This document shows, piece after piece, positions 53,744 through 58,831 of a stretch of DNA of 64,000 bases. How positions within the stretch are numbered: position 1 is the first letter of the stretch; each line of letters begins with the position of its first letter. Made by a program: the position numbers and the translations under genes. The stretch spans positions 1 to 64,000 of the forward strand of contig CAMDFK010000011.1 of NCBI GenBank assembly GCA_945897465.1. The letters are read 5' to 3'. Under the pieces are notes generated by a model. The model ran no database searches. It was not told the origin of the DNA and worked only from the letters and a program-made list of their open reading frames with translations. Source of the DNA: Limnohabitans sp. Rim8 (lineage in GTDB: Bacteria > Pseudomonadota > Gammaproteobacteria > Burkholderiales > Burkholderiaceae_C).

Positions 53744-54226
53744 ATGCAAAAAAGGCAACAAGGTTTGACATTAATCGAGCTGATGATCGTCATTGCGATC
53801 ATCGGCATCTTAGGCGCTTTGGCCCTGCCAGCCTACCAAGACTACAGCATCCGGGCAAGAGTCTCGGAAATGCTGCTGGCGGCAAGCGGTTGCAAAACCG
53901 CTGTCAATGAGGCCATCACCACCGCTTCACAGGCCGATGTTTCGGCCACTTTGCCCCAAATCTGCGAAAACCAGACCAGCAAATACGTCAGCCGCCTCAG
54001 TGCCGATGCCAACGGTGTGATCACTGTGGTCGGCAACCATGAGGCGCTGCGCGGCAACACCAGTGCAGCGGCCAACAGCATCAGCCTGACCCCGATCCAG
54101 ACGGGCAGCACCGCTGTCAACGGCAGCACCGACGGCGGCAAGCCCATTGCCAGCTGGCGCTGTGGCCCGGCAGCCACCAATGCTTTACCGCTCAAATACC
54201 TGCCCGCTTCGTGCAAGGCATCCTGA
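53744..54226 (+). CDS. pilA: type IV pilin (major or minor PilA-type)
   Basis: The 160-residue prepilin has a short leader MQKRQQG cleaved by PilD before [27 protein letters not shown] (with Leu instead of Phe at position 1, and Glu5). The globular part has a disulfide-type loop near the C-terminus ([23 protein letters not shown]) and ends in Ser. It forms the pilus for twitching, attachment or DNA uptake. No sigma54 site of standard sequence was seen upstream. A terminator follows, and then a glycosyltransferase gene. Confidence 0.92.
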
Positions 54227-54288: not shown

Positions 54289-55755
54289 ATGACAGTGCTT
54301 CGGGCCTCAGCGCAGGACACGGGCCGCATCCACCATTTGTGGCTGGTGTTGCTGTTGGCTTGGCCATGGGTTCAGCCTTTTTCCAGCAGTCCCTTGCCCA
54401 ATGTCTGGCCTTGGCTGACCAGCTGGACGTGTTTGGCGTTGGCCTTGTGGACGTGGCAGCGCATGAGTCTGGCCACCGTGGTTCAAGGCTGGGTGCTCGC
54501 AGCCTTGCTCAGCAGTGCCATGGGTCTGGTGCAGTTTTTTGGGCAGGCCGAGCTTTTGGCACCCTTCTTGCACGTCCCATCCTACTTGGGTGATGCGATG
54601 GGCAATTTGCGCCAGCGCAACCAGTTGGCCACGCTGCTGGCCATGGGCGTGCTGGCAGTCTTGGTCTGGCGTGCTTTGGGCCTGACCATCGCCCATTCGC
54701 TTTGGATGCTGGCCTTGTTGGCCATGGGCATGGCCGCCACCGCTTCACGTACGGGATTGCTCCAGCTGGTGTTCATCGGCCTGTGGATGCTGCTGCACCG
54801 CGCAGCCCCCAAAGGGCGCGAGGCTTTGCTGTTTACTGGATTCGCGCTGGGTGTGTATGCCCTGGCTTCCTGGCTTTTGCCACAGCTCTTGCAGCACCTG
54901 ATTGGACAGGCCACAGACAGCGCCATGGCCCGCATGGGCGCCCTGGGCGGCTGCGGCAGCCGCCAGGCGCTCTGGGCCAATGTGCTGCACTTGGTGGCGC
55001 AGCATCCGCTGGGCGGGTGGGGTTGGGACCAGTTGCGCTATGCGCACTACATCACCGAATACCCCTCACTGCGTTTTTGTGACATGTTGGGCAACGCCCA
55101 CAACCTGCCCTTGCACATCGCCTTTGTTTGGGGGGTGCCCGTGGCCGTGTTGGGCTGCCTGGGTGTGATGGTGTGGGTGGTTCGCGCAAAGCCATGGCAA
55201 CACAAGGGTGGGGGGCAACAGCTCGCTTGGGGCGTGCTGGGTGTTTTGGCTTTGCACAGTTTGCTCGAGTACCCGCTTTGGTATGGGCCCTTTCAAGTGG
55301 CCTTGCTGTTGTGCTTGTGGCTCATGAAGGGGCGCATTTGGCAAGTCTTACAAGTGAAGGGCCGCGCGCGGGGGCTGGCCCTGGTATTGGGGGGCGTTAT
55401 GGCGTTTGTGGCCTATGACCATGCGCAAGTTCGGCAAATTTACCTGCCTGCAGCGCAGCGCTATGGCTTTTGGCGTGAGCCAGCGCTGCAAGTGGCCCAG
55501 CGCTCTTGGCTGTTCCATGGCACGGCCGTGTTTGCGCTGGTGACGACCACGCCGGTCCACGCAGGCAATGCCCGCACCATGCTGGCGGCCAGTTTGGAGG
55601 CCATGCATACCTCGCCCGAGCCACGCGTGATTGAAAAGCTGCTCGACAGTGCCCGATTGCAGGGGGAAGACACACTTTATGAAAAACATAAAAAGCATTT
55701 CCAGCGTGTTTATCCGCAAGCCTACTTGGCCTGGGCGTACCACCGCCAACCTTGA
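54289..55755 (+). CDS. PglL/TfpO-type protein O-oligosaccharyltransferase (Wzy_C family)
   Basis: This 488-residue membrane protein has ten or more hydrophobic segments and the features QRNQLATLLAMGVLAVL, NAHNLPLHIAFVWGVPVAVLG and LHSLLEYPLWYGPFQVALLLCLWL, which are typical of the PglL branch of Wzy/WaaL enzymes. These transfer undecaprenyl-linked glycans to Ser/Thr of exported proteins such as pilin. The soluble C-terminus is TPR-like. The place directly behind pilA suggests pilin as substrate. There is a palindrome GTGAAC-TGA-GTTCAC (54274-54288) immediately before the ATG instead of a ribosome site. Confidence 0.85.
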   Translation: MTVLRASAQDTGRIHHLWLVLLLAWPWVQPFSSSPLPNVWPWLTSWTCLALALWTWQRMSLATVVQGWVLAALLSSAMGLVQFFGQAELLAPFLHVPSYLGDAMGNLRQRNQLATLLAMGVLAVLVWRALGLTIAHSLWMLALLAMGMAATASRTGLLQLVFIGLWMLLHRAAPKGREALLFTGFALGVYALASWLLPQLLQHLIGQATDSAMARMGALGGCGSRQALWANVLHLVAQHPLGGWGWDQLRYAHYITEYPSLRFCDMLGNAHNLPLHIAFVWGVPVAVLGCLGVMVWVVRAKPWQHKGGGQQLAWGVLGVLALHSLLEYPLWYGPFQVALLLCLWLMKGRIWQVLQVKGRARGLALVLGGVMAFVAYDHAQVRQIYLPAAQRYGFWREPALQVAQRSWLFHGTAVFALVTTTPVHAGNARTMLAASLEAMHTSPEPRVIEKLLDSARLQGEDTLYEKHKKHFQRVYPQAYLAWAYHRQP

Positions 55756-55950
55756 ACACTGACCGCTTGGGTGGAGGTTTTCACCCATCAACCGTTTGGA
55801 CTGATGGCCCATGCGTTTTGAAAATGACAAATTCACTCGAAAGGTTCCGACGTGATGCAGAGGACGGTGTTGACGTTTCCTCTTGTGTAAACTGTCAACC
55901 GTTGAATCAGTGCCGTGGTTTTGCTTGGGCGCGGTTAAAATATTCACTTG
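55756..55950 (+). other. leader region before the SAH riboswitch
   Basis: These 195 bases lie between the ligase stop and the riboswitch. They should contain the metH promoter; I see TTGCTT (55921) and TTAAAATATTC (55935-55945) that could be part of it. No small gene is convincing. Confidence 0.4.
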
Positions 55951-56063
55951 TTCCAAGGAGCGTTGCAGCCCGCCGCCGTCAAAGCGCAGCGGGTCAGGCT
56001 TGGGGTCGTTCAATGTTTGAATGATTTTGCACAACGACGCTCACCTGTTATTCCAAGGTGAGC
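55951..56063 (+). ncRNA. S-adenosylhomocysteine (SAH) riboswitch
   Basis: The stretch fits the SAH riboswitch: CCAAGGAGCGTTGC (55953-55966), a CCCGC/GCGGG hairpin (about 55969-55993), CAGGCTTGG (55995-56003) closing CCAAG/CTTGG, and CAACGACGCTCACC (56032-56045) that pairs with GAGCGTTG as a pseudoknot. In the expression platform GCTCACCT (56039-56046) is complementary to AGGTGAGC (56056-56063), which contains the ribosome site AAGGTGAG of metH. Without SAH the site would be masked, and SAH binding should free it, so the switch is probably ON. The consensus match is from knowledge of the family; a covariance search was not run. Confidence 0.88.
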
Positions 56064-56065
56064 CT

Positions 56066-58831
56066 GTGTCCGTTGTCTCGTCTTCCATCGTGTCTGTTCC
56101 CCCCATGAAGTTGTCCGGACTGGAGCCGGTCTCCATCGGCAGCGGTTCCCTGTTCGTCAACGTGGGCGAGCGCACCAACGTCACCGGCTCCAAAGCCTTT
56201 GCCCGCATGATCTTGAACGGCGAGTACGAGCAGGCTTTGGCCGTGGCACGTCAGCAAGTCGAGAACGGCGCACAAATCATTGACGTGAACATGGATGAAG
56301 CCATGCTCGACAGCCAGGCGGCCATGGTGCGGTTCTTGAACCTCATGGCCGGTGAGCCCGACATCGCCCGCGTGCCGGTGATGGTGGACTCCTCCAAGTG
56401 GTCGGTGATCGAAGCCGGTTTGCGCTGCATTCAAGGCAAGCCAATAGTCAACTCGATCAGCATGAAAGAAGGCGTGGACGAATTCAAGCGCCAAGCCAAG
56501 CTGGTCAAGCGTTACGGCGCGGCGGCTGTGGTCATGGCGTTTGACGAAAAAGGCCAGGCTGACACCTACGCCCGCAAAATCGAGATTTGCGAACGCGCTT
56601 ACCGCGTGCTGGTGGACGAGGTCGGCTTTCCACCCGAAGACATCATTTTTGACCCGAACATTTTTGCCATCGCCACCGGCATCGAAGAGCACAACAACTA
56701 CGCGGTGGATTTCATAGAAGCCACGCGCTGGATCAAGCAGAACCTGCCGGGCGCCAAGGTCAGCGGTGGCGTGTCCAACGTGAGTTTTTCCTTCCGCGGC
56801 AACGACCCGGTGCGCGAGGCCATCCACACGGTGTTCCTGTACCACGCCATCCAGGCGGGCATGGACATGGGCATCGTCAATGCGGGCATGGTCGGCGTGT
56901 ACGACGACCTCGAGCCCACGCTGCGCGAGCGGGTGGAGGACGTGGTGCTGAACCGCCGACCTGATGCGGGCGAGCGTTTAATCCAGGTAGCCGACAGCGC
57001 CAAGGGCGCCGCCAAAGATGAATCCACCAAGCTGGCCTGGCGCGGCACGCCCGATGCGCCTGTGCGCGTGGCGCAGCGTTTGTCACATTCTTTGGTGCAT
57101 GGCATCACCGACTTCATCAGCGATGACACCGAAGAGGCCTACCGCGAGATTTTGGCTAAGGGCGGTCGCCCACTGCATGTGATCGAAGGCCCGCTGATGG
57201 ATGGCATGAACGTGGTCGGTGACCTGTTCGGCCAAGGCAAGATGTTCTTGCCCCAAGTGGTGAAAAGCGCCCGCGTGATGAAGCAGGCCGTGGCGCATTT
57301 GCTGCCCTACATCGAGGCTGAAAAGCTCGCACAAGAAGCGGCAGGCGAAGATGTCAAAGCCAAGGGCAAGATCGTGATCGCCACCGTCAAGGGCGATGTG
57401 CACGACATCGGCAAAAACATCGTCACCGTGGTCTTGCAGTGCAACAACTTTGAAGTGGTGAACATGGGCGTGATGGTGCCTTGCCACGAAATTTTGGCCA
57501 AAGCCAAGGCAGAAAACGCCGATATCATCGGCCTCTCGGGCCTGATCACGCCCAGCTTGGAAGAGATGCAATACGTGGCGGCCGAGATGGAAAAAGACCC
57601 CTACTTCCGCGAGCGCCAGATGCCGCTCTTGATTGGCGGCGCCACCTGCAGCCGCGTGCACACGGCTGTGAAGATCGCGCCCAACTACTCAGGCCCCGTG
57701 GTCTATGTGCCCGACGCCTCGCGCAGTGTGGGGGTGGCGCAGGGCTTGCTGTCTGAGCAAGCGGCCAAGTTCATCGCCGACCTGAACACCGACTACGACA
57801 AGGTGCGCGAGCAGCACGCCAACAAAAAACAAACCCCCATGTGGACGCTGGCACAGGCCCGCGCCAACAAGACGCCCATCGACTGGTCACAAGGCGTGCC
57901 TGCTGCGCCCAAGTTCATTGGCCGCCGTGTGTTCAAGAACTACGACCTGGCCGAAATCGCGCAATACATCGACTGGGGCCCCTTCTTCCAGACCTGGGAC
58001 TTGGCCGGGCCTTTCCCCGCGATCCTCAACGACGAGGTCGTGGGTGAGCAAGCCCGCAAGGTCTATGCCGACGGCCAAGCCATGCTGCAAAAAATCATCG
58101 ACGGCCGCTGGGTCACGGCCAACGCGGTGCTGGGCCTGTACCCCGCCAACAGCGTGAACGACGACGATATCGCGCTGTATGCCGACGCCTCGCGCAGCCA
58201 AGTGGCCATGACCTGGCGCGGCCTGCGTCAGCAGTCCGAGAAACACATGATCGATGGCCCGGATGGAAAAAAAGTCCAGCGCCCCAGCCGTTGCCTGGCT
58301 GACTTTGTCGCGCCGCAAGGCACAGCGCCTGACCATGTGGGCGTGTTCGCCGTCACCGCAGGCATTGGTGCCGACAAACGCGCCGCCGCTTTTGAAGCCG
58401 CACACGACGACTACAGCGCCATCATGCTCAAGTCCCTGGCCGACCGCCTGGCCGAAGCATTGGCCGAATGCCTGCACAAAAAAGTGCGCACCGACCTGTG
58501 GGGTTACGCTGCCGCTGAGGCGCTGAGCAACGAAGAACTCATTGCTGAAAAATACCAAGGCATCCGCCCCGCGCCCGGCTACCCCGCTTGCCCCGACCAC
58601 AGCGCCAAAAAAGCGATGTTTGACTTGCTGCAATGCGAGGACATTGGCATGGGCCTGACCGAAAGCCTGGCCATGACGCCTGCGGCCAGCGTGATTGGTT
58701 TTTACATCGCCCACCCCGAGGCGCAGTATTTCAACGTCGGCAAAGTGGGTGATGACCAAGTGCAGGACTTGGCGCAGCGCAGCGGCGTGCAAGTCAAAGA
58801 CCTGCAACGTTTGTTGGCACCCAACCTCTGA
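56066..58831 (+). CDS. metH: cobalamin-dependent methionine synthase lacking the homocysteine domain
   Basis: The 921-residue product has the pterin-binding (methyl-H4folate) domain ([52 protein letters not shown]), the cobalamin cap and binding domain ([11 protein letters not shown], ligand His446, and [14 protein letters not shown]), and the SAM-dependent activation domain ([17 protein letters not shown] near residue 830). The N-terminal homocysteine-binding domain of full-length MetH (about 350 residues, 1227 in E. coli) is absent and is not encoded nearby. GTG at 56066 was chosen because AAGGTGAG lies 4-11 bases before it, while the ATG at 56021 lies inside the riboswitch fold. Confidence 0.93.

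Follow-up and report, generated by a model that had tools for sequence, protein, structure and literature searches.

A probable translational ON SAH riboswitch ahead of metH2, the gene for one half of a split cobalamin-dependent methionine synthase, in a presumed Comamonadaceae bacterium

The metH2 locus and the compared leaders

The analyzed stretch of DNA, referred to as the window, has a length of 64 kb. On its forward strand, an SAH riboswitch aptamer (55949 to 56049) precedes the gene metH2 (56066 to 58831), which encodes a protein of 921 amino acids and was assigned using Pfam and NCBIfam TIGR02082. Counted from the GTG at 56066, the Pfam domains Pterin_bind, B12-binding_2, B12-binding and Met_synt_B12 were identified. 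A homocysteine S-methyltransferase domain was not found by Pfam in the 921-aa frame, and the NCBIfam metH model TIGR02082 was matched only from model position 324 onward. Since this domain is missing and the TIGR02082 match is partial, the gene was identified as metH2, and the cobalamin-dependent methionine synthase as a split one. The sequence-only reading had named it metH, which holds for the cobalamin/folate half according to both Pfam and TIGR02082, but the gene is not a full-length metH.

PF02574 was matched just once in the genome, on another contig (C5:73537-74463), and no Rfam match at gathering level was found in the fetched stretch surrounding it. The split MetH has its halves on different contigs, and an SAH riboswitch precedes the cobalamin/folate half but not the other one. 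At many metH loci without a pattern-found riboswitch, the homocysteine half was observed directly upstream. In total, the genome contains two SAH riboswitches, one before metH2 and one before ahcY. Among named relatives, the nearest is a metagenome-assembled genome of the Comamonadaceae, with 97% identity in the best segment, and the bacterium was assigned to this family by its named relatives. The upstream neighbor of the riboswitch (54289 to 55755) encodes an O-antigen ligase/PglL-like protein (Wzy_C, PglL_A) and is itself preceded by a pilin gene (53744 to 54226), a gene pair which suggests pilin glycosylation.

For comparison, 138 metH leaders (L033-L170) were examined, 50 from a search of the genus (53 genomes with a match among 60 searched) and 88 from a family search outside the genus (144 such genomes with a match among 150 searched). 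At least one SAH riboswitch match was present in 146 of the 150 genomes of the family sample. A set of 40 loci was mostly picked for a listed riboswitch near the gene, so that the riboswitch share among them is not a prevalence. Five of the 138 leaders have no recognizable aptamer tail (L035, which is cut by the contig end, L077, L086, L088 and L154). The remaining 133 include L075 and L152, which were missed by a stricter pattern and have doubtful tails.

The aptamer and its helices

The Rfam family RF01057 (SAH riboswitch) was matched at 55949 to 56049 on the forward strand with a score of 50.2 bits, compared to a gathering cut-off of 37, and an E-value of 2.7e-6. The cmscan alignment covers the full length of the model (1-78 of 78), and the match is the only one to an RNA family at gathering level in the 64-kb window. 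An SAH riboswitch core had been recognized in this leader from the letters alone, and the covariance-model search proposed as a check on it was the one that yielded this match. By sequence inspection, the three core motifs GGAGCGTTGC (55957-55966), CAGGCTTGG (55995-56003) and CAACGACGCTCACC (56032-56045) were all found in the positions given for them. In line with the location of the family ahead of SAM-cycle genes, metH lies downstream, and the second copy of the genome lies ahead of ahcY. Compared to RF01057, the aptamer of the window matches over the whole length above the curated cut-off with a SAM-cycle gene downstream and is otherwise unremarkable; a linker hairpin predicted by folding at 56007 to 56023 sits at the insertion of the model. 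The ATG at 56021 is part of the 3' arm of this hairpin, at its 3' end, and lies inside the Rfam match, in agreement with its earlier placement within the aptamer. The element was assigned to the SAH riboswitch family, and we infer from this class that it binds SAH.

The P1 helix is formed by GTTCCAA (55950 to 55956) and TTGGGGT (56000 to 56006), as determined from the Rfam alignment and the comparison of leaders. In 130 parsed metH leaders (three others were unparsable), the inner five pairs are standard in 127-128 cases, with changes on both sides in 0 to 32 sequences per pair, and the outer two pairs in 101 and 33 cases. The fraction of cells with standard pairs was 0.848 in register and 0.18-0.68 when one strand was slid by 1-3 positions. 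These values are consistent with the P1 helix of RF01057, including its support by covariation.

The pseudoknot strands, identified by leader conservation and, for the second, also by the Rfam alignment, are GAGCG (55958 to 55962) and CGCTC (56038 to 56042). Both are present in the window, and of 132 leaders at least 131 retain each of the five pairs. Few mismatches in these strands were allowed by the search patterns, so that their conservation, nearly invariant and without covariation, is partly due to selection.

The hairpin at the Shine-Dalgarno sequence and the start codon

The anti-Shine-Dalgarno strand GCTCACCT (RNA GCUCACCU; 56039 to 56046), whose GCTC is common to the pseudoknot, is the perfect complement of AGGTGAGC (RNA AGGUGAGC; 56056 to 56063). 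The latter was identified as the Shine-Dalgarno strand by its 16S-tail duplex energy and its conservation, and it lies at ribosome-site distance from the GTG at 56066; both the complementarity and its role as ribosome site of this GTG had been recognized earlier. The hairpin comprises 8 bp (-12.7 kcal/mol). As an inverted repeat with 3 to 33 nucleotides between the arms, it has a single occurrence in the window and none in 100 shuffles, whereas AGGTGAGC by itself occurs three times versus 1.9 expected. Since the single strand is near its expected count, the pairing and its position are the unusual part.

Of 132 distinct metH leaders, 119 have a Watson-Crick helix of at least six pairs between the 3' tail of the aptamer and the sequence downstream, compared to 3.0% of 13,200 shuffles. 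The Shine-Dalgarno-masking hairpin claimed ahead of metH was therefore recovered across many genera of the family. The spacing of the six-base arms ranges between 11 and 46 nt. Leaders in which an exact GGTGAG is followed by an in-frame start after 4-12 nt were designated type A, a definition by which these six core letters are selected. All six core positions are paired with the tail in each of the 103 distinct leaders of type A (48 from the genus and 55 from other genera), five of which have G-U instead of A-U. The next pair toward the loop is standard in 97 of the 103, and the next pair away from the loop in 94, of which 37 are G-U. In the 35 gap-free leaders of the genus the loop (56047 to 56052) varies, and both stem arms are invariant except for position 56063, which is C or T, both able to pair with G. 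Outside the core, pairing in the 55 leaders from other genera is scarcely better within a leader (1.75) than between different leaders (1.63). The support for the hairpin core, which hardly varies, is thus mostly conservation and not covariation, and it could partly reflect the constraints on the aptamer and on the Shine-Dalgarno sequence. An extension of the hairpin across the GTG (CAACG/CGUUG) was discarded, since by eye it is absent from members of the genus that carry AAACC or AAACT where the window has CAACG.

The near invariance of the core pairs and the extension pairs without clear covariation would also be expected if the hairpin were a by-product, with GGTGA kept as Shine-Dalgarno sequence, the tail kept for the ligand and the complementarity idle. 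This is improbable in view of the base following GGTGA. Near the start, this base is a G in 103 of 104 metH leaders, compared to 2 of 15 other open reading frames (Fisher p 1.8e-14, with related and hence non-independent leaders), a comparison that is free of the selection for exact GGTGAG and uses mechanical, uncurated open reading frames of at least 200 aa as controls. The 16S tail would favor a T at this position. The G, which forms a pair with the aptamer strand, is unneeded by the Shine-Dalgarno sequence. In addition, both strands persist despite the variable arm spacing, and in leader L140 both are changed together (GCTCACTC with GAGTGAGC).

It is still less probable that the switch acts at transcription, with the GCTCACCT/AGGTGAGC hairpin as an intrinsic terminator. 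The same strand pair does precede CTGTTTTT in the ahcY leader of the genome, but CTGTGTCCG comes after the metH hairpin, whose Shine-Dalgarno strand lies at ribosome-site distance from the start. No terminator-like site was detected in 55750 to 56150 by a consensus terminator scan, which is not very sensitive and called no terminator in the ahcY leader of the genome either. A run of at least four T soon after GGTGA is present in only 8 of the 103 type A metH leaders. On the basis of the scan and these T runs, a terminator was rejected for metH: the hairpin followed by a T run that is expected of a transcriptional riboswitch was not found at the metH hairpin by site scan and sequence.

The start codon of metH2 is very likely the GTG at 56066 to 56068, 15 codons inside the longest open reading frame, as judged from the comparison of leaders. 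In the 49 tail-bearing leaders of the genus, the start 4-12 nt past GGTGAG is GTG in 41 and TTG in eight, and it is an invariant GTG in the 35 gap-free ones, followed by a constant N-terminus VSVV; this speaks for the GTG start proposed earlier. In 31 of the 49 leaders, there is no other start between the GTG or TTG and the preceding in-frame stop, which lies 6, 12 or 18 nt upstream. An ATG at -45 in open frame, corresponding to 56021, is found in 13 of the 49, including the window, and not in the other 36. Variation by codon position in 56066 to 56104 was 0.33/0.12/0.55 bits in the 35 gap-free leaders, compared to 0.26/0.23/0.54 bits in metH proper. The 16S-tail duplex, calculated with an assumed 3' tail sequence, has an energy of -8.5 kcal/mol at 56050 to 56068, -4.6 kcal/mol before the ATG at 56021 and -3.3 kcal/mol before the ATG at 56105. 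Translation from one of these two ATG, in which case the hairpin would mask no real start, is the least probable alternative and was dismissed: both are in frame, and the one at 56021 opens the longest frame (936 aa) and recurs in those 13 leaders, but the frames of the remaining genus leaders argue against 56021, the metH-like codon variation against 56105 and the weaker Shine-Dalgarno sequences against both.

The proposed switch, its variants and the ahcY copy

The element is most probably a translational ON SAH riboswitch ahead of metH2, as far as can be judged from sequence comparison. In the absence of SAH, the tail GCUCACCU (56039 to 56046) would pair with AGGUGAGC (56056 to 56063) and hide the ribosome site of the GTG at 56066. 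With SAH bound, the pseudoknot GAGCG/CGCUC (55958 to 55962 with 56038 to 56042) would capture GCUC and leave the hairpin with no more than 4 of its 8 pairs, and ribosome loading would become possible. More MetH2 would then be produced when SAH, which arises as a by-product of methylation, builds up, and homocysteine, the product of SAH hydrolysis, would be re-methylated. SAH binding, the ON direction and the size of the effect are expectations from the riboswitch class. The direction is deduced from the mutual exclusion of pseudoknot and hairpin, which have GCTC in common, together with the behavior of the class, in which SAH turns expression ON. The founding SAH riboswitch study, by Wang et al. 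in 2008, reportedly described SAH-dependent activation of SAM-cycle genes.

In folding predictions, the cost of opening the start region of the window decreased from 14.9 to 4.5 kcal/mol when CGCTC was blocked. The cost difference exceeded 1.5 kcal/mol in all 103 distinct type A leaders (median 6.7), compared to 55 of 309 shuffled leaders. When P1 was enforced and the pseudoknot strands were blocked, a 4-bp remnant ACCU/AGGU was still predicted, and when P1 was left free, pairing of the Shine-Dalgarno region with the aptamer strand CAGGCUUGG became possible. The freed state may therefore be less open than in the simple model. The earlier proposal that SAH frees the ribosome site agrees with the sharing of GCTC by pseudoknot and hairpin; the predicted remnant would mean a weakening of the hairpin and not full exposure.

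The kind of switch and its position before metH are already known: SAH riboswitches before metH were reported for the Comamonadaceae (PMC4239095), which is the same RNA class, gene and bacterial family. In the covered text of that study the members of the regulon are named, and a Shine-Dalgarno-masking helix and the start codons are not described. The SAM/SAH riboswitch RF01727 (PMC2864571, covered in part) also senses SAH among other ligands and precedes a SAM-cycle gene, but it is a different motif, found in Rhodobacterales before metK, and not the match of the window. Among publications on SAH riboswitches and their platforms, judged by title and start of the abstract, none beyond PMC4239095 was found to treat a Shine-Dalgarno-masking platform, with the 2007 and 2008 papers on the class outside this scope; in one riboswitch review, the passages on the term concern other classes. 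To PMC4239095, the present comparison adds the conservation of the platform, a control restricted to the B12/folate half of the split MetH and the contrast with the ahcY copy. The metH2 leader thereby becomes a fully specified, testable switch within a known class, with the likely start fixed at GTG and a masking design kept across many genera. Of wider interest are the unequal control of the halves of a split enzyme and the use of two platforms by the same aptamer class within a single genome.

The plain rule is missed by 29 of the 133 tail-bearing leaders, 14 without GGTGAG and 15 with GGTGAG but no in-frame start 4-12 nt on. In the folding test, masking (more than 1.5 kcal/mol) was predicted in 10 of the 29 and none in 19. 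The test comprised 30 rows (the 29 leaders and L101, which duplicates a leader of type A), of which 10 are above 1.5 kcal/mol with a median of 0.24: L074, L082, L120, L123, L126, L139, L140, L142, L151 and L164. For L147, L157 and L164, the start was placed mechanically at an ATG near the tail and is doubtful. Masking through other letters was found at the Shine-Dalgarno sequence in L074 and L140 and through a tail complementary to the start codon region in L126. By eye, the tail of both L126 and L145 seems complementary to the start codon region and not to the Shine-Dalgarno sequence (TCATCGAT with ATCGATGA; CGTCA with TGACG); of the two, only L126 is backed by folding.

In 21 off-rule leaders, GGTGAG or a near form is located 23-74 nt before the start, and the fetched stretches of these leaders are richer in G+C than those of type A (median 0.654 versus 0.595). 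In L082, L090, L120, L134, L135, L144, L151, L157, L159, L168 and others, GCTCACC and GGTGAG are kept, but the metH start follows tens of bases later. A relay design, composed of GGCCGC-GGTGAG-GCGGCC and a start-proximal GGCCGCC, found no support when matched and mismatched pairing was compared in the 21 leaders (E2:E3, 4.43 matched versus 4.47 mismatched; E1:E2, 5.43 versus 5.01, with 4.18 for shuffled sequences). That simple masking or the relay would account for most off-rule leaders is not supported by these sequence and folding comparisons.

The gene downstream of the second SAH riboswitch (C14:28986-29077, minus strand) is ahcY (TIGR00936, 602.9 bits versus a cut-off of 497.6). Its leader, L001, contains GCTCATC...GGTGAGC followed by CTGTTTTT. 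From a set of 71 ahcY loci (L001, L003-L032 and L252-L291), 69 were parsed (L029 and L284 were not), and 63 remained after removal of five metH rows and of L023 with its wrongly called start. All 63 were confirmed by tblastn with the AhcY protein of the L001 genome. In these leaders, a far strand ahead of the start is the pairing partner of the stretch that follows the pseudoknot strand, with a mean of 6.16 bp matched, 4.47 bp with the strands of other genomes and 4.11 bp shuffled. At least 7 bp are formed in 24 of the 63, compared to 5.7% of mismatched and 1.3% of shuffled pairings. The far strand ends at a median of 28 nt before the start (range 18-44 in the 41 leaders with at least 6 bp).

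Judged from these sequences, the ahcY copy may work by termination and the metH copy at translation. It is possible, though rather doubtful as a whole, that in this family the two aptamers of a genome follow a different output logic, the metH2 copy with an anti-Shine-Dalgarno tail at translation and the ahcY copy as a three-strand switch with a near strand at GGTGAG against the covarying far strand, and that only the cobalamin/folate half of MetH would be controlled by SAH, so that the ratio of the halves would shift with SAH. Among the 55 ahcY leaders with a near GGTGA-like strand, 11 have a run of at least four T after it, including that of the genome analyzed here.
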